A stretch of 64,000 nucleotides of DNA from Pyrococcus kukulkanii (GTDB lineage: Archaea > Methanobacteriota_B > Thermococci > Thermococcales > Thermococcaceae): positions 992,001 through 1,056,000 of the forward strand of contig NZ_CP010835.1 in NCBI RefSeq assembly GCF_001577775.1. The letters run 5' to 3'. Shown piece after piece: positions 1,273 to 19,967 of this stretch. Both the position numbers and the translations under genes were made by a program. Numbering within the stretch: the stretch's first letter is position 1; each line of letters starts with the position of its first letter. A model generated the notes under the pieces. It was given only the letters and a program-made list of their open reading frames with translations. It did not search any database and had not been told where the DNA came from.

Positions 1273-1411
1273 CGTCAAATATTTAAATGGTGAGACATAA
1301 GTCGAAATTGTGGTCTATATGAAGGCCATTAGAGCAATTTTCTTAATGAAGAAAGAGAATAAGCAGACCTTAACTCTAGGAGCCATAATTATGAGGAGTT
1401 GTCTTTTGTGA
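1273..1411 (+). pseudogene. Relic 30-codon ORF with its own promoter at the island edge
   Basis: A TATA-like AAATATTTAAATGG (about 1277-1290) is followed by ATG at 1319 and a 30-residue frame beginning MKAIRAIFLMKKENKQTLTL, ending at TGA 1409-1411. Its last 36 bases overlap the 3' end of the convergent kinase gene. The beginning looks like the basic N-terminus of a membrane protein, and the frame stops where the AT-rich island starts. I read it as the stump of a gene cut by arrival of the island. It could also be a spurious short frame. Confidence 0.35.
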
Positions 1412-2338
1412 AATATTGGTTGAAGTTTTTAAAGCAACTCTTGCTGCAGCTTCAGCGTTACTCATAATGGGTTCTTTTAGATCAACGATATCGCCAAATA
1501 CCCTCCCTAACTTCCAAAGAAGAATTGGTTTAAGTATATCCCTAGCTCCAAAGTAAAATCCCCCTGCTATTCCGAGCTTTCCTTGAATACTTTCAAATTT
1601 TAACCTCTGCACTGCAGCTAGATAAGATGAAACAATTTCTTCAGCAGCTCGTTCCAATATTAGCCTAGCTACTTGATCTCCCTCTCTTGCAGCTTTAACA
1701 ACATAAGGAGCAAACCCAGCAATAAGTGTCTTTTTATTCTCTGATGAGTATATTGCTCTTATAATACTGTCAGGACTATCGTTTTCTATCCCGAGATATT
1801 CCTTTAAATAATTATACAGGATTGTGGGTTGCCCTCTCCCATCATAAAATTTTAACCCCGCTCTTACTCCTTCCTGACCAACCCAGTATCCACTTCCTTC
1901 GTCTCCAACTAAATGGCCCCATCCTCCAACTCTTACTCTCTCACCTTTCTCATTAACTCCATATGCAATAGAACCGGTCCCAGCAATAAATACAACCCCT
2001 GGCTTAAAATTGAAGCATGCTATATGAGCGATTTCATAATCTCTTTTTATTATGATGCTAGTTTTAGGTAAGACTTCATTCAGAATCTCTCTTATTATCT
2101 TGGTATTTCCACCAAGCGTCCCGGCAATTGATATACAGGCGGATTTTATGTTATCCTTATTAGACTTTTCTGGTAAGGCTTCTACAATTGCTTTAATGAG
2201 GGAATTTCTTACGACCTGGAGAGGAGATGAATTTAAATTTGCCGGTCCGCCATATCCTACTCCAAGAATTCTTTCCTTTTTATCAATAATTACTGCCTCA
2301 GTTTTTGTAGCTCCAGCATCGATTCCTAGGAACATCAT
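1376..2338 (-). CDS. BadF/BadG-type amino-sugar kinase (GlcNAc/MurNAc kinase-like)
   Basis: This is an ASKHA-fold kinase of the BadF/BadG/BcrA family that includes human NAGK and clostridial MurK, which use N-acetylglucosamine or N-acetylmuramic acid. The phosphate-1 motif GIDAGATKTEA is at residues 5-15, a GTGS loop at 120-123 and GGWGHLVGDEGSG at 138-150, all typical of NAGK-like enzymes. The 320-residue length is normal. An AGGTGG ribosome binding site precedes the start; a second Met lies one codon on. It is the last gene of the ABC importer operon, 14 bases after the membrane protein gene. The position supports phosphorylation of the imported sugar before the NagA step. Substrate identity is inference. 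Confidence 0.85.
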   Translation of the reverse strand: MMFLGIDAGATKTEAVIIDKKERILGVGYGGPANLNSSPLQVVRNSLIKAIVEALPEKSNKDNIKSACISIAGTLGGNTKIIREILNEVLPKTSIIIKRDYEIAHIACFNFKPGVVFIAGTGSIAYGVNEKGERVRVGGWGHLVGDEGSGYWVGQEGVRAGLKFYDGRGQPTILYNYLKEYLGIENDSPDSIIRAIYSSENKKTLIAGFAPYVVKAAREGDQVARLILERAAEEIVSSYLAAVQRLKFESIQGKLGIAGGFYFGARDILKPILLWKLGRVFGDIVDLKEPIMSNAEAAARVALKTSTNISQKTTPHNYGS

Positions 2339-2352
2339 TTATACCACCTAAC

Positions 2353-3072
2353 TTATAATTTTTGTAATCCCATATACCAGGAAATCATAATACCACTGAT
2401 ATAAACTTGGACTAAAAGCAACACTTGAGATAATATAGCAAATGTTATATCCTTTATCGCAAGAGGTACTGTAAGTAGTGGGGGGAGGACAAAGCTTACA
2501 AAAAGTATATATCCGATATATCTACCCCGATACATAGAATATGCAGATCCCCAGGTTAACAATCCATATAAAAGTCCCATAGCTCTCCATGTTTTTACTT
2601 TAGTCTCTGCTGCAACTCCACGGATGGCATCTGGAGGCACTTGAAATTTAAGTCCAACATATATAAGTATAACTCCTAATATTAGTAAAAGAGTTAAGAG
2701 GGGATATGCTATGTATTTTAATTTCTCTGTTTCTTCTTCTTCCTTATATAAAATGCCAACTAAAGCAATTACCAAGTATAGAAACATTAAAAATTTCCAT
2801 GAGATTATTAAACCTCCAATATTTATTCCTCTAAAGGAGCGCATAAAAACTAAAGCTAACATAGACATTCCTCCATTTATTATGAGAAGGTTCCTGTACC
2901 CAAATTTTAGCCCTAAGATTAGTATCCCATTAATTACAAGGAGTCCGATCAGAGTTAGGGCAAGGATAAACGATGATTTAAAGTATATAGGCAACATATC
3001 TAGAAATATTACACTGAGAGTTCCAATAGCAATTATCCCAATTATAAACAACATCTTATCTTCTAACTTCAT
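2353..3072 (-). CDS. Polytopic membrane protein of unknown function in the importer operon
   Basis: This 239-residue protein is almost entirely hydrophobic. About seven or eight helices are visible, starting with MLFIIGIIAIGTLSVIFLD. A longer loop near residues 145-165 contains the only polar stretch. I do not recognise the family. It lies 6 bases after the DppC-like permease and 14 before the kinase, with a GAGGTG site, so it is expressed with the importer. It might be an auxiliary transport component or an exporter, but nothing in the sequence decides this. It does not resemble an ATPase, so it cannot replace the missing DppD/DppF subunits. Confidence 0.6.
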   Translation of the reverse strand: MKLEDKMLFIIGIIAIGTLSVIFLDMLPIYFKSSFILALTLIGLLVINGILILGLKFGYRNLLIINGGMSMLALVFMRSFRGINIGGLIISWKFLMFLYLVIALVGILYKEEEETEKLKYIAYPLLTLLLILGVILIYVGLKFQVPPDAIRGVAAETKVKTWRAMGLLYGLLTWGSAYSMYRGRYIGYILFVSFVLPPLLTVPLAIKDITFAILSQVLLLVQVYISGIMISWYMGLQKL

Positions 3073-3078
3073 TTATTA

Positions 3079-3975
3079 TCACCTCTCCCTAAGCTTTGGA
3101 TTTAGGTAATCTTCTAGGGCTTCTCCTATACAGACAAAGGCTATAACAGCGAGAGATATCATTATCCCCGGAACTATGATCCACTGCCACATTCCTTTCA
3201 TTACGATAATCATCATATTCTTATTAGCTGTGTACATTACATAACCCCAATCAGGATTATTTGGATCTCCCAGTCCCAAAAATGTTAAAGAAGCCACTGT
3301 TACAATGAATCCAGCTATTAAGATCGCTGCTCTAGCGAAGAGAAGTGGAACTATATTTGGTAATATATGTTTAAGGATAATCCTCTTATTACTAGCCCCT
3401 AAGGCTATAGCAGCCTGAACATAAAGTCTATGCTTAAGTTGAAGTGTTTGAGCCCTAACCATTCTTGCAGTTGATGGCCATGATATTAATGCTATCACAA
3501 TTATAGTATACCAAATGTTCCATATTGAAGAAAATAGAGAGGCTATGACTAACAAAAGTAGAAGGCTAGGGAGCATCATTATAGAATCTGAAATAAACAT
3601 TAAGAAATCATCTAGTACCCCTCCATAATATCCTGCAATAGTCCCTATGAGGGCTCCCAATAGAATCGTGAGTATCGCCGCAATGAATCCTACACTAAGA
3701 GAGATTCTTGTCCCATATACTATTTGCGTCCAAATGTCTTTACCCTGATGATCTAGGCCACAGGGGTGTTCCCAAGACGCGGGCTCAAATATCTCATTGG
3801 ATGTCCATTCTGGTGTGTATTTGGTAAATAGCTGAGGAAAGAGAGCCATTACTAGGAGAAAAGCTAGAATTATAATTCCTAATTTACCCATTTTGTGATT
3901 CCATGTAAATTTAAGTACGTTCCTTAAATTCCTAACTATTTCATTTATTTTTGCTGAGATCCTCATTTCTACCAT
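3079..3975 (-). CDS. Opp/Dpp-type ABC transporter permease, DppC-like
   Basis: This is an inner-membrane permease of the peptide/oligosaccharide (Opp/Dpp) ABC importer class. It has an N-terminal cytoplasmic stretch, a first helix near residues 30-50, the OppC-type segment EHPCGLDHQGKDIWTQ, and the cytoplasmic EAA loop ALGASNKRIILKHILPN that contacts the ATPase. The length of 298 residues is normal. The DppB gene ends 3 bases upstream. A GGGGGG stretch serves as ribosome binding site for ATG 3975; an internal ATG (3966) is an alternative. In this family several members import chito- or cello-oligosaccharides rather than peptides, which fits the neighbouring genes. Confidence 0.92.
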   Translation of the reverse strand: MVEMRISAKINEIVRNLRNVLKFTWNHKMGKLGIIILAFLLVMALFPQLFTKYTPEWTSNEIFEPASWEHPCGLDHQGKDIWTQIVYGTRISLSVGFIAAILTILLGALIGTIAGYYGGVLDDFLMFISDSIMMLPSLLLLLVIASLFSSIWNIWYTIIVIALISWPSTARMVRAQTLQLKHRLYVQAAIALGASNKRIILKHILPNIVPLLFARAAILIAGFIVTVASLTFLGLGDPNNPDWGYVMYTANKNMMIIVMKGMWQWIIVPGIMISLAVIAFVCIGEALEDYLNPKLRER

Positions 3976-3978: not shown

Positions 3979-4959
3979 TTATTCCCCCCTTATTCTAGGA
4001 TCTAAGTATGCATATGTAACTTCAGCTATCGTAATTGCAACTATTACAGCAATTGCGATGATATAGAATGAAGCCAACACAACTGGATAATCTTTAGTCC
4101 ACATTGCCTGGTAAATAAGGGTACCCATTCCAGGATAATTGAACACCGTCTCAGTAACGACTGCTCCCCCAAATAAAAATCCAATATCTATAGCCATCAT
4201 TGTAATAACTGGAGGCATTATGTTCCTTAGTACATGCCTCTCGAGAATATAGTTCTCCTTTAATCCAATAGCCCTAAGAGCAGTGACATAATCACTTGTA
4301 TACTCCTCTGTAGTCATATTTCTTATGGTAAGCAAGTATGAAACAGCATATATCTTGGAGAGTACAATTATGGGCAATAAGCTATGCCACAACCAATCAA
4401 CCATGTAGTGAAATATATTTTGGGGCTTTAATTCTGATGTAGTTAGATATGGGAACAATCCTGCTTTAAATGCCAAGAAATACAATAGAACCATGCCTAG
4501 CCAGAATACAGGCAATGCTCTAATTCCTAAGGTTAACCATAAAATTGCTGACTCCTTTAATGTTCCACGGTTTTTTGCACAATATAACCCAAGTAACATG
4601 CCCAACATTGCTCCAAAGAAATATGCAGCAGTTACGAGACCTAATGTGTAGGGAAGTCTAACCGAAATTAATTCAATTATGGGTTTATTATATACAGGAG
4701 ACTTCATTTTGAACAGGCTGAATGTAAACATACCATAAAGAACTTTAATGGCACCTGTGATGAAATTATCTTTATATCCCCATTTCTCTAAAAGCCTTTC
4801 ATACTGTTCTTCGGTTATTTTACCTTGATATAAGTATTGATCAAAAGGTGTTCCAGGAGCAAGTCTAAGGAGGATATATATGAGCAATATTACAAATATT
4901 AGAGTTATAACCTTATGTAACAATTTAACTGCTATGTATGAGAAAACGCTCCTCCCCAT
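3979..4959 (-). CDS. Opp/Dpp-type ABC transporter permease, DppB-like
   Basis: A 326-residue permease with the N-terminal helix and RLAPGTPFD motif typical of DppB/OppB, about six helices, and an EAA loop at ALRAIGLKENYILERHVLRN. It pairs with the DppC-like protein to form the transmembrane channel of the importer. The start ATG 4959 follows a GGGTGG site about 8 bases upstream. It is the second gene after the solute-binding protein. No gene for an ABC ATPase follows, so the nucleotide-binding subunits must come from elsewhere in the genome. Confidence 0.93.
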   Translation of the reverse strand: MGRSVFSYIAVKLLHKVITLIFVILLIYILLRLAPGTPFDQYLYQGKITEEQYERLLEKWGYKDNFITGAIKVLYGMFTFSLFKMKSPVYNKPIIELISVRLPYTLGLVTAAYFFGAMLGMLLGLYCAKNRGTLKESAILWLTLGIRALPVFWLGMVLLYFLAFKAGLFPYLTTSELKPQNIFHYMVDWLWHSLLPIIVLSKIYAVSYLLTIRNMTTEEYTSDYVTALRAIGLKENYILERHVLRNIMPPVITMMAIDIGFLFGGAVVTETVFNYPGMGTLIYQAMWTKDYPVVLASFYIIAIAVIVAITIAEVTYAYLDPRIRGE

Positions 4960-5014: not shown

Positions 5015-6844
5015 TTATCTTCTCCTTCTCCTCAGAATTAATGGTAATGACGTTAGAGCAACTAAGATTGCTGGTCCACAGACCCCCTTTTCTACTGTTT
5101 CAGTTTTTGTTACAGTTTCTTTCTTCTCTATTGTCTGAGTCTTTTCAATTACTGATGTGGTTACTGAAGTTGTTGTCATAATTTTTGTTTCGGTCTCTTT
5201 TATTATCTTTGTTGGACTTCCTATTAGTGACCAGTACCCAACTGTATAATATCTTGGGTTGGGCTTCCATCCCCTGTAGTGGTCAATTCTGTAAGGAGTA
5301 GCTACAATTGGATGATATAAGGCTATAAATGGTATATCCTTTGCTAGTATTTCTTCAAGTTGGTAAGCTATTTTTGGATCACCGATCCTCTGAAATTCAT
5401 TAAATAATTCATCGAATTTTGGATTCGAGTATCCTATTCTATTTCCAGGATTGTCCGTAGTGAACCATGCCAAATCAGTTGGCTTTGAGGGTACATATCC
5501 AACTATTGCAAGATCCCAGGAACCTGCTCCCCACTTGTCCCAATAATCACCGGCTTTATCTACCTTTACTTTCAATCCAACTTCCTTCAGGTACCTTGCA
5601 ATATCATCTCCAATGGCATCCCTGAAGAATGAGTCTCCCGGAGCCCTGGTAAGGAGGTAAATCTCAAACGGCTTACCATCTGGTGTTTCTCTGTATCCAT
5701 CTCCGTTAATATCTTTGAATCCTAACTTGTCAAGTATTTCCTTTGCCTTTTCAGGATTGTATGGATAAAGCTTTTCTTTTGGAAGGTACTTTGCAAAATC
5801 TCCAAAGAATGGTCCTAAGAATCCCATACTCCCTAGCACCGCCCCATCGGTGCCGTAATACTTTTCCACAATCTTATCAACTGGAATCGCATAGGCTATT
5901 GCTTTTCTGAATTCTAAGTTATTGTAGGGGAACCCTTTCTTGAAGTTAAAAGCTAATAAGTGAATTGATTTCGAGGCAGTCCTGTATATCTGGACATTTG
6001 GATCTCCTGCAATCATCTTCTTGAATTCCTCTAAATACTTTCCAAAGAAGTAATGATATCCCGCGTCTACCTCTCCTGCAGCAACCATCATTGCAAATTG
6101 GTTCCTATCATTGATTATCTTGAAAATTATCCTGTCTACTTCAGGCTTTCCGAGATAGTGTCCTGGAAATGCTTCTAACTTTACGTATTCGTCTGGCTTT
6201 ATCTCTACAACTTTAAATGGACCACATCCAATGAGTTGCTGAGGCTTGTCTAGGGAAGCCGTTGGATCTGGAATTATATTCTTGTTCTCCCATATGTGCT
6301 TTGGAACTATGAAGAGAGTTGTAAATGCCATTTCAAGGAAGGAATTTGCAGGAGCTTTATTTGCATCATATATTAGCTGGATTGTATACTTATCTAGGAC
6401 TTTAATATCTTCAAGCCCCTGAAGAATTAACGAATCTGGATTAACGAATGTTGCAGGGTCTTTCTTAAATAACTCTATTGTATATTTAACGTCATCTGCC
6501 GTTACTTCCTGATCATCATGCCATTTAACGCCTTTTCTCAAATAAAACGTCAAAATTTTCTTGTCTCCACTAGTTTTGAACTCCCACTTTTCTGCTAATG
6601 CTCCTGTAAGTTTAAATCCACTGTCATCCCACCTAATTAGGGGTTCGTAAATCTTGTCAAGGACTACATTTGCGTATACTGTGCTAGAAGTAAGAGGATT
6701 GAAGTTTTTCCATTGCCTTGTTGCAAGGACTAATTCGATCTCTGGTTTTCCAAGGACTTGTGGAAAGGCTCCTATGCTTAATACGATAACTCCAACTATG
6801 GCCGCAACTAGTAACTTTGGCGCTTTCACAGCGCCCCACCTCAT
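5015..6844 (-). CDS. Extracellular solute-binding protein, Dpp/Opp family 5, CGP-CTERM anchored
   Basis: This is the binding protein of the importer (SBP_bac_5 family). The start is placed at ATG 6844 (609 aa), which begins MRWGAVKAPKLLVAA, a signal peptide, and lies about 25 bases after a TATA box, so the mRNA is nearly leaderless; longer in-frame starts lie too close to the TATA box. The mature part shows the family pattern, for example KWHDDQEVTADDVKYTIEL and YNPEKAKEILDKLGFKD. The C-terminus has a Thr/Ser/Glu-rich linker, then GVCGP, a hydrophobic helix and five Arg residues. This is the Thermococcales CGP-CTERM type of sorting and anchoring tail. Oligosaccharides or muropeptide-like compounds are likely ligands by context. 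Confidence 0.93.
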   Translation of the reverse strand: MRWGAVKAPKLLVAAIVGVIVLSIGAFPQVLGKPEIELVLATRQWKNFNPLTSSTVYANVVLDKIYEPLIRWDDSGFKLTGALAEKWEFKTSGDKKILTFYLRKGVKWHDDQEVTADDVKYTIELFKKDPATFVNPDSLILQGLEDIKVLDKYTIQLIYDANKAPANSFLEMAFTTLFIVPKHIWENKNIIPDPTASLDKPQQLIGCGPFKVVEIKPDEYVKLEAFPGHYLGKPEVDRIIFKIINDRNQFAMMVAAGEVDAGYHYFFGKYLEEFKKMIAGDPNVQIYRTASKSIHLLAFNFKKGFPYNNLEFRKAIAYAIPVDKIVEKYYGTDGAVLGSMGFLGPFFGDFAKYLPKEKLYPYNPEKAKEILDKLGFKDINGDGYRETPDGKPFEIYLLTRAPGDSFFRDAIGDDIARYLKEVGLKVKVDKAGDYWDKWGAGSWDLAIVGYVPSKPTDLAWFTTDNPGNRIGYSNPKFDELFNEFQRIGDPKIAYQLEEILAKDIPFIALYHPIVATPYRIDHYRGWKPNPRYYTVGYWSLIGSPTKIIKETETKIMTTTSVTTSVIEKTQTIEKKETVTKTETVEKGVCGPAILVALTSLPLILRRRRR

Positions 6845-6860
6845 ATAATCTTTGTCATTT

Positions 6861-6873
6861 AGTATATAAATTT
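6861..6873 (-). promoter_or_regulatory. TATA box of the importer operon
   Basis: AAATTTATATACT on the minus strand is centred about 25 bases before ATG 6844. It supports a leaderless or near-leaderless transcript and the chosen start of the binding protein. Confidence 0.65.
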
Positions 6874-6937
6874 TTTCGCTATATTGGGTCAATGTTTCAT
6901 GTTTTTCTCAATTAGATAATAAAAAACAAAAATGATG

Positions 6938-7984
6938 TCAGAAGTTAGAAACATACTTGGCTAATCCACTAGGATTATCTGGGTCATGTCCAAGGGAAAT
7001 ACTTAGATAATAGGCCATAATCTGGTAAGGGATTACAAACGGGATTATGCTTAATACCTCGCTTCCAGACCATGGAACTAGATATGTGTTATCACTAAAC
7101 TCAGATAATTCAGGGTTATTTGTAATTATTATTGGCTTCAAATCGTTAATCTCGAGAATAAATCTTCTTATATTCTCTTCATATTCTTTACAGGTTTTGT
7201 GAAGAACTAAGAAAGTCGCTATCTTGTCCTTATGAACCTTTAGTGCTATCGGTCCATGTCTGAATTCAAACATCGGAAAGACCTCGTTTGCAATATATGA
7301 CGTTTCCCTAAATTTCAAAGCTCCTTCAAGGGTTACTATGCATGTTGCTCCAGAGCCAAGGTGGACAAATAAGCTCTTATTTGCCAATGTCCTGTCACTT
7401 ATCTTCATAAACTCTTTTTCATCTTCGATAATCTTTTTCGCTACTTTTGGAATTTTAGATATATCTTTTTCAAGAGATTCAATGGCTTCTGTATCATTTA
7501 ACAAAGATATTGCAATTTTTTGGAGAATTAAAGTTATCGCTGAAAACGATTTAGTTGCAGGTATGTTTGGTTCTTCTCCATCACGTATAATGTAAAATGC
7601 ATCTGAAACTTTTGTTAAAGTGGAGCTTTCATTACAGGTAATCCCTATAACTTTTCCCCCCTGTTGTTTCACGATTTTCGCTGCAGTTATGATTTCTTTG
7701 GTCTCCCCTGAACGAGATGATAGAAACACTAGGCTGTCTTTAGAGAGGTTTGAATAGGTAAGGATAAATTCGGAGGCTGGAAATGCAACGGCCTTTATCT
7801 CTGAAGATAACCTAAGAAATGTATACGCTCCCGCTAAAGATGAGTAATAGGAACTGCCACATCCAATAAAGAGTATTCTCTTGTACCTCTTAAAATCCTC
7901 TGGAATGTCAATTGGAGTCTTTACAACATCTTTTAAAATTTTAGGAGTTTCTCTTATTGATCTAATCATCCAATATTCCATCAT
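6938..7984 (-). CDS. SIS-domain amino-sugar isomerase/deaminase (GlmS C-terminal-like, GlmD type)
   Basis: This 348-residue protein contains two SIS domains and matches the isomerase half of GlmS without the glutamine amidotransferase half. Visible motifs are FIGCGSSYYSS (about 40-50), SSRSGETKE (about 88-96) and FEFRHGPIAL in the second half, the loop that carries the catalytic His in GlmS, plus a C-terminal GLAKYV similar to the GlmS tail Lys. Stand-alone forms such as Thermococcus GlmD act as glucosamine-6-phosphate deaminases giving fructose 6-phosphate. A GAGGTGG site precedes ATG 7984. It lies 49 bases after the secreted glycosidase gene and is probably cotranscribed with it. Confidence 0.85.
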   Translation of the reverse strand: MMEYWMIRSIRETPKILKDVVKTPIDIPEDFKRYKRILFIGCGSSYYSSLAGAYTFLRLSSEIKAVAFPASEFILTYSNLSKDSLVFLSSRSGETKEIITAAKIVKQQGGKVIGITCNESSTLTKVSDAFYIIRDGEEPNIPATKSFSAITLILQKIAISLLNDTEAIESLEKDISKIPKVAKKIIEDEKEFMKISDRTLANKSLFVHLGSGATCIVTLEGALKFRETSYIANEVFPMFEFRHGPIALKVHKDKIATFLVLHKTCKEYEENIRRFILEINDLKPIIITNNPELSEFSDNTYLVPWSGSEVLSIIPFVIPYQIMAYYLSISLGHDPDNPSGLAKYVSNF

Positions 7985-10847: not shown

Positions 10848-10871
10848 GAAATATGTTTATAATTAAGACAA

Positions 10872-12146
10872 TCATTCAAAAATGAAATTGAGGATCTCCT
10901 CTCTGAATTTAGTGTATTCAGAAGGATCGATAATGGAGTTATATACTTCATAAGTATCAAGCTGAGTTCCAGGGTATGGGAAGTATCCAAAATAGCCATT
11001 TGAATATCCAATGACCATAGTATATTCATAAGGTGAATTTCTCTTAATTTCTAACTGATACTCTACAAAAGGCTCCCCTGGAATAAATACTGCAAGAAGT
11101 TTGTTACCTATAACTAATTTTGCAATTTTTATTTTTATTTTCCGAATCCTCTTTAGTTTATTTATCCTCTTTTTTAAAATTCTTAATCCTAGGTAGTTAC
11201 TTTCAAGTATCCTAATTTTTGGTGAAGAACGTTTCTCTGCTTTTAGCCTTTTTAATTTTCCATAAATTTCCTTCTCCTTCTCTTCGAGTTCATCAAGTTC
11301 CTCTTTTTTAATTCTTCTAGCCTTTAATTTTATTGTCTTCCAATCGATAATAATATCTTCTTTAAGTTTAGTAGTTATTGAAAGCCCTTTTGTAAATTGG
11401 GAATAAAATAATGTTGCAAGCCTCTTAACTTCTTCGTAACTTTGGGATCTCCTAGTAAACCTAGTGCTAACATTTCCAGCAGCTCCATTGAGATACAGGG
11501 CTACGTTAAAATTGAGAGAATTCTCGAGCATAGAGGAAATCATTCCTGCAAGATCTCCAGAAAATTTTTTATTCGTTGCGGGTAGGACTGTTGGATGACA
11601 GGAGTAATTTATGACTAAAAAACAGTTTTTTGACGCTAAGAACGTACATTCTGTATCAATGGGTCCTTCTTTGTGTATTCTATTACTCGCAATCCCATGA
11701 ATAGGAACTTTGCCTGCAAGTACACCCTCAACTTCTTTTACCTCAATATTTTCCATAGCCCTAAGTATAGACTTAATTAAGGATTCTCTATATTCCCTGA
11801 TTAGTTTTACGTCTTCAGGCCCTAATTCTATGCTATTCCAAAAATGGATCGAAATTTCAGGACCTGAATGAGTATGGGTTGCAGTGACAATTATATTATC
11901 TTTGTTTATTCCAATATTATCCGAGATCTTAGCGACGATTTCTTGATATAACTCATTATCAACCCTGATAAGATCCAGAGATATTATAACAATTGGATCT
12001 TCTAAGTTAGAATTAAGGGTAAGAATCCTAGCATAAAGGGGATCCAATATTCCTTCACTTTTACCTACTCTAAGGGCATATCCAGCCATAGGCATTGGAA
12101 TGTTTGGAGTTATCTCTATTTTATTTATTCCAGCTAAAATGCTCAT
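10872..12146 (-). CDS. Neutral/alkaline ceramidase-family amidohydrolase, cytosolic
   Basis: This 424-residue protein belongs to the neutral/alkaline non-lysosomal ceramidase N-terminal family (PF04734), Zn enzymes that hydrolyse N-acyl amide bonds. Recognisable are the opening INKIEITPNIPMPMAGY, the Zn site ATHTHSGPE, the NYSCHPTVLP His motif, GDLAGM and LNGAAGNVS. It has no signal peptide and lacks the long C-terminal half of secreted ceramidases, so a lipid substrate is unlikely. In this locus it could deacylate an amino sugar or split an amide-linked substituent; this is inference. ATG 12146 has AGGTGG seven bases upstream; a GTG four codons earlier is less likely. Confidence 0.8.
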   Translation of the reverse strand: MSILAGINKIEITPNIPMPMAGYALRVGKSEGILDPLYARILTLNSNLEDPIVIISLDLIRVDNELYQEIVAKISDNIGINKDNIIVTATHTHSGPEISIHFWNSIELGPEDVKLIREYRESLIKSILRAMENIEVKEVEGVLAGKVPIHGIASNRIHKEGPIDTECTFLASKNCFLVINYSCHPTVLPATNKKFSGDLAGMISSMLENSLNFNVALYLNGAAGNVSTRFTRRSQSYEEVKRLATLFYSQFTKGLSITTKLKEDIIIDWKTIKLKARRIKKEELDELEEKEKEIYGKLKRLKAEKRSSPKIRILESNYLGLRILKKRINKLKRIRKIKIKIAKLVIGNKLLAVFIPGEPFVEYQLEIKRNSPYEYTMVIGYSNGYFGYFPYPGTQLDTYEVYNSIIDPSEYTKFREEILNFIFE

Positions 12147-12189
12147 ATTATCAACCACCTAGTTAAATTATGTTCATCATCCTGTAAAT

Positions 12190-12227: not shown

Positions 12228-13415
12228 ATGGTGGGGGAAATGGCAAATCCCTTGTTCCACATGATTTCATATGAAGACGTTGAAAAGATTGTAAGGGCTT
12301 CGGGATGGGAATATAAAGTTGTTGGAAAAACCCTTCTAGGTAGAGATATATTCCATATAAAGGTTGGAAATGGGAATGTAAGAATCCTAATAGTTGCTGG
12401 TATTCATGGAACTGAGCCTGCTCCTGTAAATGCCTCCCTGCTGTTATTAAAATTATTAAAAGAAGAATATCCAATGAATTACAATTTTAAAACTCTCGAA
12501 AATGTTGAACTTCACATAATCCCATTAGCAAATCCAGATGGCTTTCAAAGGAATTATGAGTTGTTTAAAGCTAAAGATTTCACTCCCCATTGGAGCCATG
12601 TATGGGAAGAAGCAAGAAGAAATGCAAACGGTGAAGACTTAAATAGAGATTTTATGTATCTGCGTCAGCCCGAAACAAGAGCTATTCATGATGTTTTTAA
12701 TAAGGTTGATCCTCACCTTGTTTTAGACCTCCATGAGTTTTATGCAAAGGGAGGTTGTCCTCCCAAATGGGCAGATGAAACAGAAGGATTTCTCTCAACA
12801 ATTACGGACACGCCCTATAACTGGGTAAACGAGAGTATTAGGATTATCTCAGAAAAAATTGCAAAAGAGATAGGAAGAGCGTTGCCGTGGAAACCAAAAA
12901 TGAGGCACTTTATGGCTGAGGCTCAGGAGTTTCCTGTGGTTCCCAACAATGTTCTAGGCACCCATTTCCCATTTGAAGGGGCAGCTAAGGTACTAATAGA
13001 GACCTGGGGGGTAGGCTTGGCAAATTATTTAATGACAGATAGAGTTTCAGTTCATCTCCATGCAATTCTTACAGCAATCGAATTTGCGGAGAAAAATCCA
13101 GAGAAATTCATCAAAATGAAAGAGGACTGGGAAAAAGAAGAGATTAAAGCATGTAGGGAGTACCAGGGATTCATAATTAGGGGAAATAAAGAGGAGTTAA
13201 ATAAAGTGGAAAACTTATTAACCCTACACGGAATTGAAATGACAAGAAAAGAGAAGGATCTTATCTTTGTCCCTATGCCCCAAAAACGGGGAAAGATTAG
13301 CATACTTCTTCTTGATAGGTATCATTGGTATAATCAAGAGTTAGAAAAAAGGAGGAGAGGGCCGTTTACAATTGACAAAATCTTCGACGTTAGCATTGAA
13401 GTTTCTAAAGGGTGA
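12228..13415 (+). CDS. M14-family zinc carboxypeptidase, intracellular
   Basis: This 395-residue protein is an M14 metallocarboxypeptidase. It shows the Zn motif GIHGTEPA (HxxE), the substrate-binding region with LANPDGF and GEDLNRDF, the third Zn ligand in VLDLHEF, and the catalytic Glu in LIETWG. There is no signal peptide, so it acts inside the cell on imported material. M14 enzymes include peptidoglycan stem-peptide hydrolases as well as general carboxypeptidases. The extra 100 C-terminal residues have no recognisable domain. Start ATG 12228 fits the TATA distance; ATG 12240, after GGTGGGGG, is an equally good alternative. It is the first gene of the plus-strand operon. Confidence 0.87.
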   Translation: MVGEMANPLFHMISYEDVEKIVRASGWEYKVVGKTLLGRDIFHIKVGNGNVRILIVAGIHGTEPAPVNASLLLLKLLKEEYPMNYNFKTLENVELHIIPLANPDGFQRNYELFKAKDFTPHWSHVWEEARRNANGEDLNRDFMYLRQPETRAIHDVFNKVDPHLVLDLHEFYAKGGCPPKWADETEGFLSTITDTPYNWVNESIRIISEKIAKEIGRALPWKPKMRHFMAEAQEFPVVPNNVLGTHFPFEGAAKVLIETWGVGLANYLMTDRVSVHLHAILTAIEFAEKNPEKFIKMKEDWEKEEIKACREYQGFIIRGNKEELNKVENLLTLHGIEMTRKEKDLIFVPMPQKRGKISILLLDRYHWYNQELEKRRRGPFTIDKIFDVSIEVSKG

Positions 13416-13421: not shown

Positions 13422-14351
13422 ATGATAGTTAGAGGAGATGAAATTGAAATACAGGATATTGTTAGTTTCATGAATAGTTGCTTTAGAACATATAGAGAAT
13501 GGAACTTGACTGTAGAAAAGTTTAAGGTGTGGTTAGAGAGTGATGAAGGTATAAAACAGGAAAATATGTTCTTTTACTTATGTGATAACAAAATAGCAGG
13601 AATGATTCAAATTGTAGAAAGATTTGTTAAGATTGGAGATTCATTTAAATCATGTGCAGGAATTGCAAATGTATGTACAAAGCAAGAATTCAGAGGTAGA
13701 GGAATTGCAAAAAAATTATTAGAAGAGGTTCTTAACTACGCTAAGGAAAATTATGAGATATGCGCTCTATTAGCAGGATATGGAGAATTAGCCCATGCAA
13801 TATATAGGAAATATGGATTTAAGGATTCTTACTTCACAGAATATGGGATAATGCTGAGGGATGACTTAAATAGTACAAGTATTGAGTGCCCATACATTAG
13901 GAAGGCAAATGAAAAAGATGTGAAGGGGATTGTCAATCTCTATAATAATTACATTTTACTAACCGGCTTATCAGGGGTAATTAAAAGAAATGAAAGGTAT
14001 ATCTTAGAGAAATTCATTAAAAGAACATTCTGGCACACATTCTTTTATTCCCCAGAACAAGGAAACGTTATAGTTTTTGATGATGGAAAACTCCAAGGAT
14101 ATGCTTCCACTTTAGAGGGCCCAAGGATTGGAACTGTGATAGTCAGAGAAATAGTTGGGAAGGATAGGGACATTGTTAGGGACATGCTTGGATATATATT
14201 TGAAAAATATAATGCAAAAAGCCTTACTATTTATGCCCCTCCTCAAGAGCTAAAATTGTTGAATCTAGAAACATTCCGTGTTCCTGAAAGTTACATGTTT
14301 AAGGATTTTCATGTTAAAAATGCGTATATATTTTATTCTGATAGGTGGTAA
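13422..14351 (+). CDS. GNAT acetyltransferase, probably tandem-domain
   Basis: Residues about 1-145 form a GNAT domain with the acetyl-CoA loop CTKQEFRGRGIAKKLLEEV and the C-terminal strand AIYRKYGF. The second half (about 150-309) starts IRKANEKDVKGIVNLYNNY and looks like a degenerate second GNAT domain. The overall layout resembles Eis-type or mycothiol-synthase-type tandem proteins. The gene follows the M14 peptidase by 6 bases and ends just before the SIS gene, whose AGGTGG site overlaps its last codons. N-acetylation of an amino sugar or of a released amino group would fit, but the acceptor is not known. Confidence 0.8.
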   Translation: MIVRGDEIEIQDIVSFMNSCFRTYREWNLTVEKFKVWLESDEGIKQENMFFYLCDNKIAGMIQIVERFVKIGDSFKSCAGIANVCTKQEFRGRGIAKKLLEEVLNYAKENYEICALLAGYGELAHAIYRKYGFKDSYFTEYGIMLRDDLNSTSIECPYIRKANEKDVKGIVNLYNNYILLTGLSGVIKRNERYILEKFIKRTFWHTFFYSPEQGNVIVFDDGKLQGYASTLEGPRIGTVIVREIVGKDRDIVRDMLGYIFEKYNAKSLTIYAPPQELKLLNLETFRVPESYMFKDFHVKNAYIFYSDRW

Positions 14352-14353
14352 AA

Positions 14354-15085
14354 ATGATGGAGGAATACTACACGAAGGTTAGAAACCTTCTCGAAAAAAT
14401 TCTTATAGAAGAGAAGCAGGCTATTGAAGAAGCTGCAGACCTTATTGTAGCCAGTATCAAAGAAGGAGGGATACTCCATGTAATAGGTGCTGGGCACTCT
14501 GCAATGGCTGGGGAAGAATTATTTTACCGAGCAGGAGGTTTGGCCAGTGTTAACCCTATATTGGACAGTGATATAAATATATCCCATGGTGCCCAAAAAT
14601 CAACAGCTATGGAAAAAATTCCTGGATATGCAAGAGTTCTACTGGAATCAGCAGGCATAAGGGAGAATGATGCTCTTTTAGTTGTTTCAACATCTGGAGT
14701 AAATCAATTTCCAGTGGAAGCTGCCATGGTTGGAAAAGAGAAAAAATTAAAGACGATCGGAATTACTTCAGTGTCTTATTCTAAGACCCTAGAGCCCAAG
14801 AATGAGTACGGAAAGAGACTTTTCGAGGTCGTAGATGTTGTAATAGATAATAAAGTTCCTCCTGGAGATGCAGTAATAAAAATTGGTGATTTAACGACAA
14901 AAGTAGCTCCTGTTTCTACAATAACGAACTGTTTTATCGTTAATTCCTTAGTTATAAAAGTTGTAGAAAAGCTACTAAATGAAAATATAACTCCCCCCAT
15001 ATGGATTAGTGCTCATTTACCTGAGGCAAAATTGCATAATAGTCGTCTTTTTAAGGAATATAGAGAAAGAATAAAACTATTATGA
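14354..15085 (+). CDS. SIS-domain phosphosugar-binding protein, COG4821/UPF0309 type
   Basis: This 243-residue single SIS-domain protein has the motif ILHVIGAGHSAMAGEELFYR (about 40-60), then LLVVSTSGVNQFPVEAA, the sugar-phosphate site of this family. It differs clearly from the GlmS-like SIS protein at 6938. COG4821 proteins are frequently encoded next to nagA, and their reactions are poorly characterised. MurQ etherases have a related SIS fold, so lactyl-ether cleavage is one possibility, but no MurQ-specific region is visible. The start ATG 14354 is chosen because AGGTGG lies six bases upstream; an earlier GTG overlaps that site. It is coupled to the GNAT gene and followed 13 bases later by nagA. 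Confidence 0.85.
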   Translation: MMEEYYTKVRNLLEKILIEEKQAIEEAADLIVASIKEGGILHVIGAGHSAMAGEELFYRAGGLASVNPILDSDINISHGAQKSTAMEKIPGYARVLLESAGIRENDALLVVSTSGVNQFPVEAAMVGKEKKLKTIGITSVSYSKTLEPKNEYGKRLFEVVDVVIDNKVPPGDAVIKIGDLTTKVAPVSTITNCFIVNSLVIKVVEKLLNENITPPIWISAHLPEAKLHNSRLFKEYRERIKLL

Positions 15086-15098: not shown

Positions 15099-16247
15099 AT
15101 GGAATTGATTTTAACAAATGCGAAAATATATACCCCTACAGAGATCATCGAGCCGGGAACAATTGTTATTGAAGATGGCATTATCAAGCAAATAATGAAG
15201 GGAAAAGTAAAGGATGGCATTGATTTAGAGGGGAAAATAGTGGCTCCTGGGTTTATAGATACCCACATACATGGATGTTACGGCTTTGACGCAAATGATG
15301 GGGAAAGTTCAAGATTTCAAATGATGGGCAAAATGCTAGTAAGGCATGGTGTTACAAGTTTTATTCCTACAACTGTCACAGATTCTCATGAAAATCTTCT
15401 CAGGATTTCAAGAGAAGTAGGTAAAATTATTGAGAAGTATAAAGAAGATAAAGGGGCCAGGATTTTAGGATTGCACCTAGAAGGTCCTTATATTAACCCG
15501 AAAAAGAAAGGAGCTCAAAATCCTGGATATATAAGAAAGCCTGATTTTGGAGAGTTTATGGAATATTGGAAAGCTTCAAATGGGAGTATAAGAGAAATTA
15601 CAATAGCACCAGAGGTTGAAGGAGCCATAGAGTTCATAGAAAATGTTACAAGACTTGGAGTTATCGTTCAATTAGGTCATACAGACGCCACATATGAAGA
15701 AGCAAAAAGGGCTATAATAGCGGGAGCAACTAAGGCAACCCATTTATTCAACGCGATGAGAGGTATTCACCATAGAGAGGTTGGTGTAGTAGGTGCATGC
15801 CTTGAGAGTGAGAGTGTATATCTTGAAATGATATGTGACTTAATTCATCTCTCCCCTCAAATAATTAAACTTGTATATAAATTAGTAGGACCATATAGAA
15901 TAGCTCTGGTTACTGATGCCATCAGTGCTACAGGTTTACCAGATGGCAGGTACACATTAGGGGGATTAGATGTTATTGTTCAAGGAGGTATATGTAGACT
16001 ATTAGATGGCACTTTGGCAGGAAGCACGTTAACTATGGACAAAGCGATAAAGAACTTAGTTAGTATAGGCATTCCTCTTCGAGACGCATTAATAATGGCT
16101 TCTTATGTTCCAGCTAAGGCCATTGGAGAACGTGACATAGGGATTTTAAGACCAGGATGTAAGGCAGATTTTGTTGTTTTAGATGATAACCTTATCGTGG
16201 TGCAGACATATATAAACGGGAGATTAGTGTTTGAGAGGAATACTTAA
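15099..16247 (+). CDS. nagA: N-acetylglucosamine-6-phosphate deacetylase
   Basis: This amidohydrolase-superfamily enzyme removes acetate from GlcNAc-6-phosphate to give GlcN-6-phosphate. The motifs are complete: DTHIHGCYGFD, LEGPYINPKKKGAQ (metal Glu), LGHTDATYEEA, THLFNAMRGIHHREVG, the catalytic Asp in VTDAISATGLPDG and LAGSTLTMD. The length of 382 residues is standard. A GAGGAGG site lies 8 bases before ATG 15099. It is the last gene of the plus-strand operon and ends one base before the convergent Lrp-like gene. With the kinase upstream and the GlmS-like SIS protein downstream it gives a full GlcNAc to fructose 6-phosphate route. Confidence 0.95.
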   Translation: MELILTNAKIYTPTEIIEPGTIVIEDGIIKQIMKGKVKDGIDLEGKIVAPGFIDTHIHGCYGFDANDGESSRFQMMGKMLVRHGVTSFIPTTVTDSHENLLRISREVGKIIEKYKEDKGARILGLHLEGPYINPKKKGAQNPGYIRKPDFGEFMEYWKASNGSIREITIAPEVEGAIEFIENVTRLGVIVQLGHTDATYEEAKRAIIAGATKATHLFNAMRGIHHREVGVVGACLESESVYLEMICDLIHLSPQIIKLVYKLVGPYRIALVTDAISATGLPDGRYTLGGLDVIVQGGICRLLDGTLAGSTLTMDKAIKNLVSIGIPLRDALIMASYVPAKAIGERDIGILRPGCKADFVVLDDNLIVVQTYINGRLVFERNT

Positions 16248-16248: not shown

Positions 16249-16785
16249 TTATTCCCTTTCATTTTCTTGCTCAATTAATTCTGAAAATAACTTTGGAGTA
16301 TGTATGTTTGCAAGTATGGTGTAATGGTCAACAACATCACTCTCTAACATGAATTCTTCAATCTTTTCCTTTAAAGTTTTGAAGTCCTTCTCGAAAAACC
16401 TAAATAAGAAGTCATATTCCCCTATGTATTCACTAATTTCATATATTCTAGGCTCTTCCAAGGCTTTGTTAATGAAATCTCTCACTGCTTCAGCAGAACA
16501 TCCAGGTTTCAGTTTAATGAGAACATCTGCAGACGCTAGTTTTAGTTTGTCAAATCTAAGAAATCCTCTAACTTTAATTATTCCTTTCTCTTCAAGTGCT
16601 ATTCTTCTCCTTCTGGCAGTGGGAATAGACACATTGGCTATTTTTGCTAGATCTGTGTCAGACACCCTTCCATCGTCCCTTAGAGCGAGCCAAATTAAAA
16701 TATCAATATCATCAAGATAATCTTTTAATATCTCTTTAAAGAATTCTAATTCCCTCTTATATTTAGCCTCGTCTTTAGTTATCAA
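16249..16785 (-). CDS. Lrp/AsnC-family transcription regulator
   Basis: This 178-residue protein has an N-terminal winged helix (about 20-70: DIDILIWLALRDDGRVS, then DTDLAKIANVSIPTARRR) and a C-terminal RAM-like ligand domain. The start is TTG 16785, eight bases after a strong AGGAGGTG; no ATG upstream fits. It is the last gene of the minus-strand unit with the oxidoreductase, 72 bases after it, and probably also has its own promoter, since an A/T-rich TATA-like stretch lies near 16840-16850. It is the only regulator in the island and therefore the probable local sensor of the substrate or an intermediate. Confidence 0.85.
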   Translation of the reverse strand: MITKDEAKYKRELEFFKEILKDYLDDIDILIWLALRDDGRVSDTDLAKIANVSIPTARRRRIALEEKGIIKVRGFLRFDKLKLASADVLIKLKPGCSAEAVRDFINKALEEPRIYEISEYIGEYDFLFRFFEKDFKTLKEKIEEFMLESDVVDHYTILANIHTPKLFSELIEQENERE

Positions 16786-16857: not shown

Positions 16858-17820
16858 TCAACGTAGAGTTATTACTCTTCCACACTCTGAGGATCTGTAT
16901 AGGGCATTGACAACCTTATGAACTTTTAACCCATCAACTTCATTGACAATTGGTTTTTCATTACTTTCTATTGAATATATAAAGTGTCTAAGTTGTCTTG
17001 CATACATTTTCTCTACAGGCTCACTAAAATTACCTTTTTCAAGAATCTGAAACTCTTTCTTTGAAATTGTATACTCTCCCTCTAGGTATCCATCGACAGT
17101 TACAGTTCCCTGGGTAGCCTGTAGACCCCATTTCCTCCATCTATGTTGAGCGGTCCAAGTTTGCATTATTGTAGAAACCGCGCCATTTTTATGAATAAAC
17201 GTTGCAACAGCGTTGTCCTCTATGTCCACGCTTTCATTGAGTGTCCAACATTTTCCAATGACCTTCTTTATATCTCCAGCATACCACAAGAAGTAGTAGA
17301 TTATGTGAACTGCATTTTCATTTATCATGCCTCCACTTTTGTCCTTGCTTCCAATCCATTCATTATAAGGTAGCCTTCCTAGAGCTATGTGCCACTGGAA
17401 TAAGATATCGCCTAGATCTTTTTCTAAGTATTCCTTTACTTTTAAAAATAGTCCGTGAAATCTAAGACTAAATGCAACCATGAGTCTATTTGTTCTCTTG
17501 GCTTTTTTGTATATCGCTATAGCATCGTTTAAATTGGCTCCCATAGGTTTCTCTAGTAATACGTAGAAGCCCTTTTTAAGTGCGTAAATTGCCTGTTCCC
17601 TGTGAAGATGAGGAGGAGTAGCTATTATTACTCCATCAGGACTCTCTTTTTCTAGCATTTCTTGATAATTAGTATATACTGGAACTTTGTATTCTTTTTT
17701 TACTTTTTCAAGGATATCAGGTTTAATGTCACAAACTCCGGCAACTTCCACTCCAATCATTTTCATTACCCTAAGGTGAATTTGTCCCATATTTCCAGCA
17801 CCAATTAAGCCTATTCTCAT
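16858..17820 (-). CDS. Gfo/Idh/MocA-family NAD(P)-dependent oxidoreductase
   Basis: This 320-residue protein has an N-terminal Rossmann fold with GLIGAGNMGQIH and the family's EKPMG motif (about residue 93), then the mixed C-terminal domain with GGMINENAVHIIYY, where the His is the usual active-site residue. ATG 17820 is chosen with GGGTGATC upstream; a GTG three codons earlier is possible. The ribosome binding site overlaps the stop of the TIM-barrel gene. Members oxidise or epimerise sugars, inositols, anhydro-sugars or N-acetylhexosamine glycosides; the pairing with an AP-endonuclease-2-type isomerase is common in sugar catabolic clusters. Confidence 0.87.
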   Translation of the reverse strand: MRIGLIGAGNMGQIHLRVMKMIGVEVAGVCDIKPDILEKVKKEYKVPVYTNYQEMLEKESPDGVIIATPPHLHREQAIYALKKGFYVLLEKPMGANLNDAIAIYKKAKRTNRLMVAFSLRFHGLFLKVKEYLEKDLGDILFQWHIALGRLPYNEWIGSKDKSGGMINENAVHIIYYFLWYAGDIKKVIGKCWTLNESVDIEDNAVATFIHKNGAVSTIMQTWTAQHRWRKWGLQATQGTVTVDGYLEGEYTISKKEFQILEKGNFSEPVEKMYARQLRHFIYSIESNEKPIVNEVDGLKVHKVVNALYRSSECGRVITLR

Positions 17821-17825
17821 TTTGA

Positions 17826-18629
17826 TCACCCAAATATTTTCTTGAGTGAGGTAAATGAGTCCTCAGCGGCCTTTATAGGATCACCTAAATATGGAGGAAC
17901 TTCTGGTAGTACGTACCCTCTATAGCCTACTTTTTCCAAGGAGCGCCTTACAGCTTCCCAATTTATGCTTCCACTCAGTGGAATTCCGAATTTCAGTTCA
18001 CCCAAGTTGAAGTCTTTGACGTGAACTTGGAATATCTTCTTCCCAAGAACTTCTATCCAGTGTTCTGGAAGGGAGTGAGGGAGTGTGTTGCCAACGTCAA
18101 AGTACACCCCAACATTATCCTTATTTACCTTATCAAGAAGCATCTTGAACTCTAAAGGGCCTGCAAAAACTCTATTCCATACATTCTCAAGTCCTATAAT
18201 AACTCCATAGTCTTCTGCTATGATAGAGGCTCTTTGAATAAAATTAGTTGCCTTTTCAAAATGTTCTTCATAGGATAAAGTGGATACCCCACTCCCAGGG
18301 ACTACGAGAATTATTTTTGCATCAAGTAAAGATGCCACCTCACATTCGGCCTTTATAACTTTTAGAGCATCCTCACTATTCGTTATTGGGTTGTATCTCC
18401 AGAACAAACCAGTAGCAACACTGGGAATTTTAATGCCGAGACTTTCTGATATTTCTTTAATACGTTTAAATTTAACTTTAAATTCATCTTTTCCAAATTT
18501 TTCAAAATCCTCTAGCCCTATTCCTACCTCATATCCACAGTACCCGATTCCTTTTGCGGCCTTAAGGGCACTTTCAATTGGGAACGTTTTTGGAAAACTC
18601 CAACAGTTTATGCCAAATTTAATTTTCAT
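17826..18629 (-). CDS. TIM-barrel sugar-phosphate isomerase/epimerase (AP-endonuclease-2 family)
   Basis: A 267-residue TIM barrel of the xylose-isomerase-like family. The metal-ligand positions are visible: Glu in IGLENVWNR, Asp in VYFDVGN, His in FQVHVKDFN and the terminal Glu in VLPEVPP. The length is typical of IolE/Hyi/UxaE-like enzymes. Its ATG overlaps the stop of the GHL gene (ATGA), with GGAGGTG upstream. It probably works with the adjacent Gfo/Idh/MocA oxidoreductase on the sugar released by the GHL protein. The substrate cannot be predicted from sequence. Confidence 0.85.
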   Translation of the reverse strand: MKIKFGINCWSFPKTFPIESALKAAKGIGYCGYEVGIGLEDFEKFGKDEFKVKFKRIKEISESLGIKIPSVATGLFWRYNPITNSEDALKVIKAECEVASLLDAKIILVVPGSGVSTLSYEEHFEKATNFIQRASIIAEDYGVIIGLENVWNRVFAGPLEFKMLLDKVNKDNVGVYFDVGNTLPHSLPEHWIEVLGKKIFQVHVKDFNLGELKFGIPLSGSINWEAVRRSLEKVGYRGYVLPEVPPYLGDPIKAAEDSFTSLKKIFG

Positions 18630-19843
18630 ACTTTCACCTCCTTAAACAACTTCCCTATTTTTAGGAGATTTACCTTGGGAGTCCATCCATACGAGTAGAA
18701 ACTTATTCCATCTATAGGAAGTTTTAATGCTAATTTGAACTGACGTTCAATATCCTCGGGAGTCGTGGGTGGCCAAGAAGCAAGTCCGAGGACTATCTCC
18801 ACGTTATTTTTAACGAGTTTCCTGGCTAACATTGCCTCATATGGTATCCTGCATATTGATCTTTTGAATGGTTTAACGTATATCATTACTTTAATCCTGT
18901 CGACGATTTTTGACAGTTCTTTGTAGTCCTGTCCCAGTAACCAGGAACCTGAAGGAGGATATAAGTCAGCACTTATTTCTGCTTTTGGATTATTTTTCCT
19001 TATAATCTTGGAAAGCTGAAGAAGCAATTTATTTATTTGATTTTCTCTAAATTTCAACCACCTTCTGATTATATCATTATCTAGCAGTTCCTTAGTGAAA
19101 TCCAAATGCATAGCTTCACAATAATCTAAATCAGTACAGTACTCTTGAAGCTTTGAAAAATATTGAACATGCCATTCAACTATATCCTTTAAAACTTTCC
19201 TAACTTCTTCAAGATTAATTCCATAATCTATTGCTGCATCTTTACAATATTTACAAAAACATGGGGAAAGTGCAAGATCCAAAAGGGGAGTACTATATGT
19301 TGTTGGAACTTCTGGATACCTTATAAAATCAAATTCAAATTCATTAAATTCATATTTCTCAGAAAGTTCCTCAACCATTATCGAAAGAGCTTTTTTTACA
19401 TCTGGGTTTGAAGGACAAAGAAACATCCTCTTATAACTAGGGTGGGAACCATAGATATCAACAACTCCAATGAATGGATTGTCTCTCACGGCTTTTTCCC
19501 ACCTTAATGTAGGGAACCAAAGGACACTCTTAATAGAATTCTCTTCACAAGCCTTTACAAATTTCTCTACAATATCGCCCTTAATTTCTTGGGATTGAAT
19601 TGGTCTGAGGTATGAGGGGATATTCAAGTATTTATTCTTTTCAATACTCCAGTATACGGCATTTTCTTCTGAGGTATAAGTTCTTTGTTGAAGATTTTGG
19701 AAAATTATATTAGGTCCAGGCCAATTTTGTCTCTCTTCAATATATCGGACAGCTAGACTTACATGGGTAAATCCAAATTTTGAGAGTTCTGCTATTGCAT
19801 TTCTATTAAAATCCCAAGGATGCATCCATATTCCCCTATACAT
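18626..19843 (-). CDS. Cytosolic GHL-type putative glycoside hydrolase
   Basis: This 405-residue TIM-barrel protein has no signal peptide. It resembles the GHL6/COG1649-type hypothetical glycosidases: it opens MYRGIWMHPWDF, contains FLCPSNPDVKKAL, then FEFDFIRYPEVPT, where the acidic pair lies at the end of a barrel strand as in the GHL10 protein, and a Cys cluster CFCKYC. The start ATG 19843 has GGGGAG five bases upstream. It is the first gene of the unit GHL - TIM isomerase - oxidoreductase - Lrp. It may split oligosaccharides after import. The bond and substrate are unknown. Confidence 0.75.
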   Translation of the reverse strand: MYRGIWMHPWDFNRNAIAELSKFGFTHVSLAVRYIEERQNWPGPNIIFQNLQQRTYTSEENAVYWSIEKNKYLNIPSYLRPIQSQEIKGDIVEKFVKACEENSIKSVLWFPTLRWEKAVRDNPFIGVVDIYGSHPSYKRMFLCPSNPDVKKALSIMVEELSEKYEFNEFEFDFIRYPEVPTTYSTPLLDLALSPCFCKYCKDAAIDYGINLEEVRKVLKDIVEWHVQYFSKLQEYCTDLDYCEAMHLDFTKELLDNDIIRRWLKFRENQINKLLLQLSKIIRKNNPKAEISADLYPPSGSWLLGQDYKELSKIVDRIKVMIYVKPFKRSICRIPYEAMLARKLVKNNVEIVLGLASWPPTTPEDIERQFKLALKLPIDGISFYSYGWTPKVNLLKIGKLFKEVKV

Positions 19844-19967
19844 CAAGCTCCCCAAAATTTAATGGTTTATTAAACTTTTAAAATTTTACTGTAATATGTT
19901 AAATTTTTATATGTTGTCGGGGATTAGAGATAATTGAATTAATGTATTGCACAAATATTAACGACCA

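Follow-up and report, generated by a model that had tools for sequence, protein, structure and literature searches.

A horizontally spread gene island in Pyrococcus kukulkanii predicted to feed on an N-acetylhexosamine glycan

The chitin route of the Thermococcales combines an Opp-type importer with a deacetylase, GlmA and GlmD, and the bacterial route for N-acetylglucosamine (GlcNAc) combines the kinase NagK or a phosphotransferase system (PTS) with NagA and the deaminase NagB. NagS of Streptomyces is a GlcNAc-6-phosphate dehydratase (PMC12680351), and cleavage of glycosides by oxidation and elimination, with an oxidoreductase and a Mn-dependent eliminase, has precedent (PMC10628242). Here we compare these systems, and the MurK/MurQ muramic-acid pathway, with an island of 16 open reading frames (ORFs) that fills positions 1376-19855 of a 64,000-nucleotide stretch of the P. 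kukulkanii genome (the window, G000:C1:992001-1056000, on a chromosome of 1.98 Mb). We read it, with a probability of about 0.7, as a horizontally spread catabolic island by which some Thermococcaceae feed on an N-acetylhexosamine glycan via import, phosphorylation, NagA and a SIS protein. That reading is carried by features taken directly from the DNA, namely the gene set, its co-inheritance and absence in sister species, intact catalytic residues and a block common with a bacterium. Families were called by profile search (Pfam, NCBIfam/TIGRFAM), and scores are bits, given against the family cut-off where there is a second figure.

The GC content of the island is 36.5% (0.365), against about 47% (0.466-0.470) in both flanks. 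A previous sequence-only reading had described an AT-rich block at 1319-19950; block and composition stand, and the edges move to 1376-19855. A comparison of neighbourhoods across the Thermococcaceae finds all 16 genes in one cluster in six genomes, the window genome and five others of three genera (G005, G089, G090, G018 and G020). The order of sub-blocks is kept across the six islands, G018 and G020 carrying a section in inverted orientation. Surroundings differ between genomes, except in G005, which has the same right-hand neighbours as the window, and the sites of the other islands on the chromosome are mostly different from the window's. Two genomes, the close sister G010 (96% identical in methionyl-tRNA synthetase, MetRS) and G008, have no island at this site; there the methyltransferase gene of the island border adjoins the upstream-flank genes. 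The island is therefore a presence-absence unit. At the island edge in G005 is a 179-codon remnant of an amidohydrolase gene that is 384 codons long in G008. In G018 and G020 the GC content of the island is in line with the host's (0.53-0.54); in the window genome it is not. Of 94 Thermococcaceae genomes, six have the M14 gene and seven the ceramidase-like gene. Full-length M14 matches are confined to the six islands and to the bacterial genome JdFR-47, and M14 is the diagnostic family of the island.

The gene set is thus co-inherited, and since 16 of 16 genes recur in five genomes and three genera, the GC content contrasts with the flanks and sister species lack the island, the grouping is beyond chance. 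A chance gathering of small operons that have unrelated functions and move as one would fit the use of two strands, the several promoter-like regions and the sub-blocks inverted in G018 and G020. That explanation is already contradicted by the co-inheritance, the 16 genes being together in five other genomes at mostly different sites and many of them also in a bacterium, and we give it almost no credence.

The bacterial copy is in JdFR-47, a metagenome-assembled genome (MAG) of Candidatus Acetothermia, where counterparts of the island genes M14, GNAT, SIS2, NagA, Gfo, AP2 and GHLb (described below) share a single contig of 7.3 kb; the reading frames of GHLb and AP2 are interrupted in it, which may be a sequencing error. 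The core enzymes are about 54-66% identical to those of the island, compared with about 39% for MetRS. The GNAT is 32% identical, and GHLb and AP2 were compared as short fragments. The GC content is 66% for this contig and 62% for another in the same genome. A second contig overlaps the first by exactly 182 bases (L032:2-583, L097:2198-3502) and carries, beyond the overlap, a GHL10-type enzyme, then a CUT1-type binding protein and permease, which places the GHL10-type gene beside M14. The ceramidase-like gene was not found in JdFR-47, a MAG that may be incomplete, and the other genomes of its phylum (100 genomes) hold no full-length relatives of M14. Because the blocks match and the core enzymes are far more alike than MetRS, transfer between the domains, in either direction, would be the simplest reading.

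The GHL10-type enzyme of JdFR-47 is 32% identical to the secreted enzyme of the island and, read across the contig joint, has an N-terminal repeat like those that bind pseudomurein (PF09373, 20.8 bits, E 4e-4). The food might then be pseudomurein, an amino-sugar polymer made by hyperthermophilic methanogens and bearing amide-linked peptides. However, the repeat falls under its cut-off of 24.9 and occurs only in the bacterial homologue, and among the island genes none was recognised as serving uronic-acid catabolism, so that pseudomurein seems a very improbable substrate.

The canonical chitin route is present elsewhere in the window genome, at G000:C1:298-311 kb, with GlmD (648 vs 580), GlmA (1574 vs 1500), a deacetylase assigned by its PIG-L family only, and a full Opp importer. 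The island resembles that cluster in its Opp-type importer and GlmS-type SIS, which are 28-31% identical to the chitin-cluster proteins, and differs in taking the NagA route, there being no deacetylase, GlmA or GlmD among its 16 genes. The earlier statement that deacetylase and GlmA are outside the locus was correct; the claim that the NagA route replaces the deacetylase route was not. As the chromosome holds both, the island adds to the canonical route. SIS proteins about as large as GlmS and GlmD also occur in the island-free sister species.

Like the bacterial NagK/PTS-NagA-NagB pathway, the island has a candidate kinase, NagA and a predicted deaminase. Unlike it, a SIS protein of the GlmS-isomerase type takes the place of NagB, the island is archaeal and mobile, and it adds SIS2, the ceramidase-like protein, M14, GNAT, GHL10/GHLb and Gfo/AP2. 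NagA (window 15099-16247, plus strand; TIGR00221, 358 vs 225.7), a predicted N-acetylhexosamine-6-phosphate deacetylase, keeps the metal and catalytic residues E131, H195, H216, R227, H251 and D273 (E. coli NagA numbering). The SIS protein (6938-7984, minus; PF01380, 108), which has no glutaminase domain and is a predicted glucosamine-6-phosphate deaminase, keeps the GlmS isomerase residues S303, S347, S349, T352, E488, H504 and K603. The sugar kinase (1376-2338, minus) is of the BadF/BcrA type and NAGK/MurK-like; it is well over the Pfam cut-off (PF01869, 118 vs 31.5) and under that of the NagK_SO3507 equivalog (128 vs 370). Its nearest solved relative is MurK (8zo3, 136 bits), followed by Sulfolobus tokodaii hexokinase (114) and human NAGK (72), which bears out the MurK-likeness seen earlier.

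The kinase is also the first of the points that favour bacterial peptidoglycan as the food. In that scheme GHL10 would cut the wall, Opp would import muropeptides, M14 and the ceramidase-like enzyme would strip the peptide, the MurK-like kinase would phosphorylate MurNAc and GlcNAc, and SIS2 would remove lactate before NagA acts. SIS2 (14345-15085, plus; NF002805, 301 vs 135) is a phosphosugar SIS protein of the NagS type (COG4821/UPF0309). The island shares with the MurK/MurQ pathway the kinase family, with its nearest match in the PDB, and the SIS family of SIS2. It differs in that Glu83 of MurQ is replaced by Arg at the aligned column in every SIS2 examined, and identification of SIS2 as MurQ was therefore rejected. 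The PDB relatives of SIS2 are 3cvj and 9eol, the latter being NagS itself (SCO4393). SIS2 is 33% identical to NagS and keeps H53, R64, E94 and D179, which are essential in NagS (PMC12680351). In place of N228, which contributes to catalysis in NagS, the sequences from the islands, G073 and JdFR-47 all have His, and S91 is Thr.

Among 115 genomes of the archaeal phylum SIS2 was found in 11, all Thermococcaceae, and NagA adjoins it in all 11. Four of the loci are associated with a PTS. In G073 (L031:910-6406 and L030:14955-16661) mannose/sorbose-type EIIA, EIIB, HPr, EIIC-D and EI accompany SIS, SIS2, NagA and the ceramidase-like gene; in G079 (L093:2003-10009) and G087 (L094:2285-10067) there are HPr and EI, and in G093 (L095:12865-13146) HPr, with SIS, SIS2 and NagA only. 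In G085 the neighbour of SIS2-NagA is a CUT1 importer. G073 lacks the island kinase and Opp importer and keeps the ceramidase-like protein, NagA, SIS2 and SIS, and such replacement by a PTS is what would be expected if those four proteins act on a 6-phosphate. The PTS components that adjoin SIS, SIS2 and NagA in Thermococcaceae are of the mannose/sorbose or GAT type. Beside the PTS locus there is a Cdc6/AAA-like gene in G073 and G079, and an ORF of similar size and place in G087, which may regulate the locus.

In bacteria, plasmids of the alphaproteobacteria Devosia, Martelella, Ponticoccus and Nitratireductor (L051-L054) carry in a row a deaminase-like (NagB-like) gene, SIS2, NagA and the ceramidase-like gene, then a CUT1 importer. 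The island resembles this operon in the adjacency of SIS2, NagA and the ceramidase-like gene with a deaminase-like gene; the operon differs in its identity of about 22-36%, its CUT1 importer, the lack of a listed kinase, and a SIS2 in which Asn and Tyr replace two phosphate-binding serines of NagS. Since the serines are replaced and no kinase is listed, the substrate of these operons may be unphosphorylated. In Planococcus and Priestia, SIS2 is the last gene of a nagE/nagA/nagB/GntR cluster. Individual island genes also have relatives in haloarchaea, Rhizobium, Listeria, Enterococcus and Agrobacterium, where the contexts are different. By its NagA, PTS, CUT1 and nagE contexts, SIS2 is tied to the catabolism of amino-sugar 6-phosphates in archaea and bacteria alike, and the ceramidase-like protein to a part of it. 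What is new is the constant adjacency of SIS2 and NagA in the 11 Thermococcaceae, and again in the alphaproteobacterial operons with the ceramidase-like gene, which makes SIS2 and the ceramidase-like protein orphan members of a cross-domain amino-sugar module. Searches of the literature turned up no description of a NagA island in Thermococcales, nor any study that links a ceramidase-like gene with NagA and a sugar isomerase.

The importer of the island consists of Opp/Dpp-type permeases C (3079-3975, minus; PF00528, 98) and B (3979-4959, minus; PF00528, 138) and a family-5 solute-binding protein (5015-6892, minus; SBP_bac_5, PF00496, 232) with a CGP-CTERM anchor (TIGR04288, 22.4 vs 21). It was described before as an Opp-type importer, which holds for these three proteins; a transporter ATPase gene is not among the 16, and eight oligo_HPY ATPases are encoded elsewhere in the genome. 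A TATA-like stretch falls inside the first codons of the binding protein (6845-6892), downstream of the TTG that is listed as its start; the true start is probably the ATG 16 codons downstream of that TTG, just before a segment like a signal peptide. Because the enzymes stay the same while the importer changes between Opp, CUT1 and PTS, the imported food is more readily seen as a sugar than as a peptide. The Opp importer is itself no argument for peptides, since the chitin cluster of the same genome has one beside GlmD and GlmA. Against peptidoglycan, JdFR-47 and the alphaproteobacteria have sugar-type ABC importers, and the SIS2-NagA pair also occurs in small PTS loci that have neither M14 nor the ceramidase-like gene.

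Three of the island proteins suggest that the sugar carries an amide-linked group. The first is a predicted cytoplasmic metallo-amidase like the neutral ceramidases (10872-12158, minus; PF04734, 55 vs 32.1), in which H95, H97, H188, E362 and Y392 are invariant from archaea to bacteria; the assignment of zinc ligands comes from known family structures, our own alignment covering the THTHSGP motif only. The second is a predicted metallo-carboxypeptidase or amidase of the M14 type (12228-13415, plus; PF00246, 65 vs 21.6) with H60, E63, H169 and E258 invariant, and the third a GNAT acetyltransferase (13422-14351, plus; PF13527, 64 vs 25). The carboxypeptidase-type residues of M14 are another point for peptidoglycan. 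The food might also be glycoprotein debris, such as GlcNAc-Asn glycopeptides from archaeal S-layer N-glycans, from which M14 would trim amino acids and which the ceramidase-like amidase would split at the GlcNAc-Asn amide. Judged from the families, that one scheme would explain why an Opp importer and M14 are found together with an amidase that acts inside the cell, ahead of NagA. But the island has no member of the glycosylasparaginase family, and the amidase family is also found beside sugar-type ABC importers in bacteria and beside the PTS in G073; we think glycoprotein debris improbable.

The secreted GHL-type glycosidase (8034-10784, minus) was named GHL10 by the sequence-only reading; it scores under the GHL10 cut-off (PF02638, 23.6 vs 27.9) and passes that of DUF4015 (37.9 vs 27) in the same DUF4015/GHL10/GHL6 superfamily, and it has in addition an amidotransferase-like BPL_N domain (38.8 vs 24.2). 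Its AlphaFold model (pLDDT 43.5) was too poor and was not used. The second such enzyme, a cytoplasmic TIM-barrel glycosidase-like protein (GHLb; 18626-19855, minus), does pass GHL10 (30.4 vs 27.9), as first described. Its sequence had no significant match in the PDB. Its AlphaFold model, of medium confidence (pLDDT 63), has its best match in Cwp19, which is a lytic transglycosylase of peptidoglycan (PMC6016235), and the glycosyl hydrolase DigH has denuded wall glycan as its target (PMC12288456); both favour peptidoglycan. The fold of Cwp19 is, however, common to GH156 sialidases, which do not share its active-site residues (PMC6811678), and GH42 is next after Cwp19 in the GHLb list, so that the fold of a medium-confidence model does not fix the substrate. 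A 2025 paper on archaeal peptidoglycan hydrolases makes no mention of Thermococci. With the missing MurQ glutamate, the CUT1 and PTS importers of related clusters and the Opp importer of the chitin cluster, peptidoglycan or sugar-peptide food is not favoured, and we regard it as unlikely.

Beside GHLb lie a Gfo/Idh/MocA sugar oxidoreductase (16858-17829, minus; PF01408, 94), whose best NCBIfam match, UDP-GlcNAc 3-dehydrogenase, is under cut-off at 136 bits, and a xylose-isomerase-like TIM barrel (AP_endonuc_2, AP2; 17826-18629, minus; PF01261, 112) in which E148, D178, H203 and E243 form an invariant tetrad like a metal site. This adjacency of a dehydrogenase and a barrel with a metal-type tetrad recalls the 3-keto-glycoside cleavage systems, the likeness being confined to the logic of the reactions and to broad family membership. 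The remaining genes are a Lrp/AsnC-type regulator (16249-16785, minus; PF13412 and PF13404), 73-98% identical in the other islands, and a membrane protein (2353-3072, minus) without a Pfam match, which is the 16th member of the conserved set and 38-79% identical in the five other islands.

In the catabolic island as we read it, the secreted GHL-type enzyme would cut the polymer outside the cell, and the oligosaccharides would enter through the Opp-type permeases and their binding protein, with energy from ATPases of other loci. Inside, GHLb, the Gfo dehydrogenase and the xylose-isomerase-like enzyme may free the sugars, possibly by 3-keto chemistry, while the ceramidase-like and M14 amidases with the GNAT would remove or exchange the amide-linked group. 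The BadF kinase would form the N-acetylhexosamine 6-phosphate, NagA would deacetylate it, and the SIS protein would then deaminate and isomerise the product to fructose 6-phosphate. SIS2 would act on the same 6-phosphate pool by C2/C3 dehydration, epimerisation or similar, and Lrp is the likely local regulator. Substrate and activities are here predictions from families, residues and context, and this applies throughout to the reactions given for SIS2, the ceramidase-like enzyme, M14/GNAT and Gfo/AP2/GHLb. A more specific version, in which SIS2 and the ceramidase-like enzyme perform two undescribed steps of a widespread amino-sugar-6-phosphate module and, in the island, serve to process a so far unrecognised, modified N-acylhexosamine polymer opened by 3-keto Gfo/AP2 chemistry, as a new pathway exchanged between archaea and bacteria in hot environments, is put forward tentatively.

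Some observations weigh against the catabolic reading. The SIS protein scores 113.7 against an equivalog cut-off of 580 for GlmD, its deamination being predicted from residues and context. Relatives of SIS2 that are 26-36% identical to NagS gave no or negligible dehydration of GlcNAc-6-phosphate (PMC12680351). The alphaproteobacterial SIS2, lacking two phosphate-binding serines, implies that the substrate of the module need not be the same everywhere.

Upstream regions compared by eye for a common Lrp operator gave no defensible shared operator; promoters like BRE/TATA were seen 5' of the secreted GHL10-type gene and of the GHLb gene. The sequence TGACAAAATTAATCGAAAA at window 10785-10871, 5' of the former, is kept in G005, G089 and G090 and is less exact in G018 and G020; it contains a BRE-like element, and an operator might be there too. 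A gene of the S-Me-THD family, not found in the window, lies in or beside three other islands, at L023:1783-2901 (G089), at L026:4508-5635 (G018) and, assigned by size and place only, at 21839-22924 of the joined L024 and L025 stretch (G090). Just outside the island, at window 21163-22961, are a predicted secreted protein and a membrane protein with a winged helix, a fast-evolving pair that is only 50-62% identical to its G005 counterparts, compared with 78-98% for the island genes.

The amino-sugar interpretation of the sequence-only reading was right in outline. The families it had named are present in one block, with BadF, Opp, SIS, NagA, COG4821, M14, ceramidase, GNAT, Lrp, Gfo/Idh and the TIM barrel matched by profile, and its logic of phosphorylation before deacetylation agrees with the residues kept in NagA, SIS and the ceramidase-like protein and with the co-inheritance of the genes. 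The island would give Thermococcaceae that already hold the chitin route a second, phosphorylating amino-sugar pathway, one that is present or absent between sister species and common with a bacterial MAG. It also provides a strong context for two orphan families, the COG4821 SIS proteins, whose tested members outside the Streptomycetaceae are without NagS activity, and the prokaryotic PF04734 ceramidase-like proteins, which cannot all act on ceramide. That Opp, CUT1 and PTS stand in for one another beside a constant set of enzymes narrows the choice of substrate to sugars, so that a few purified proteins would suffice to test the question.

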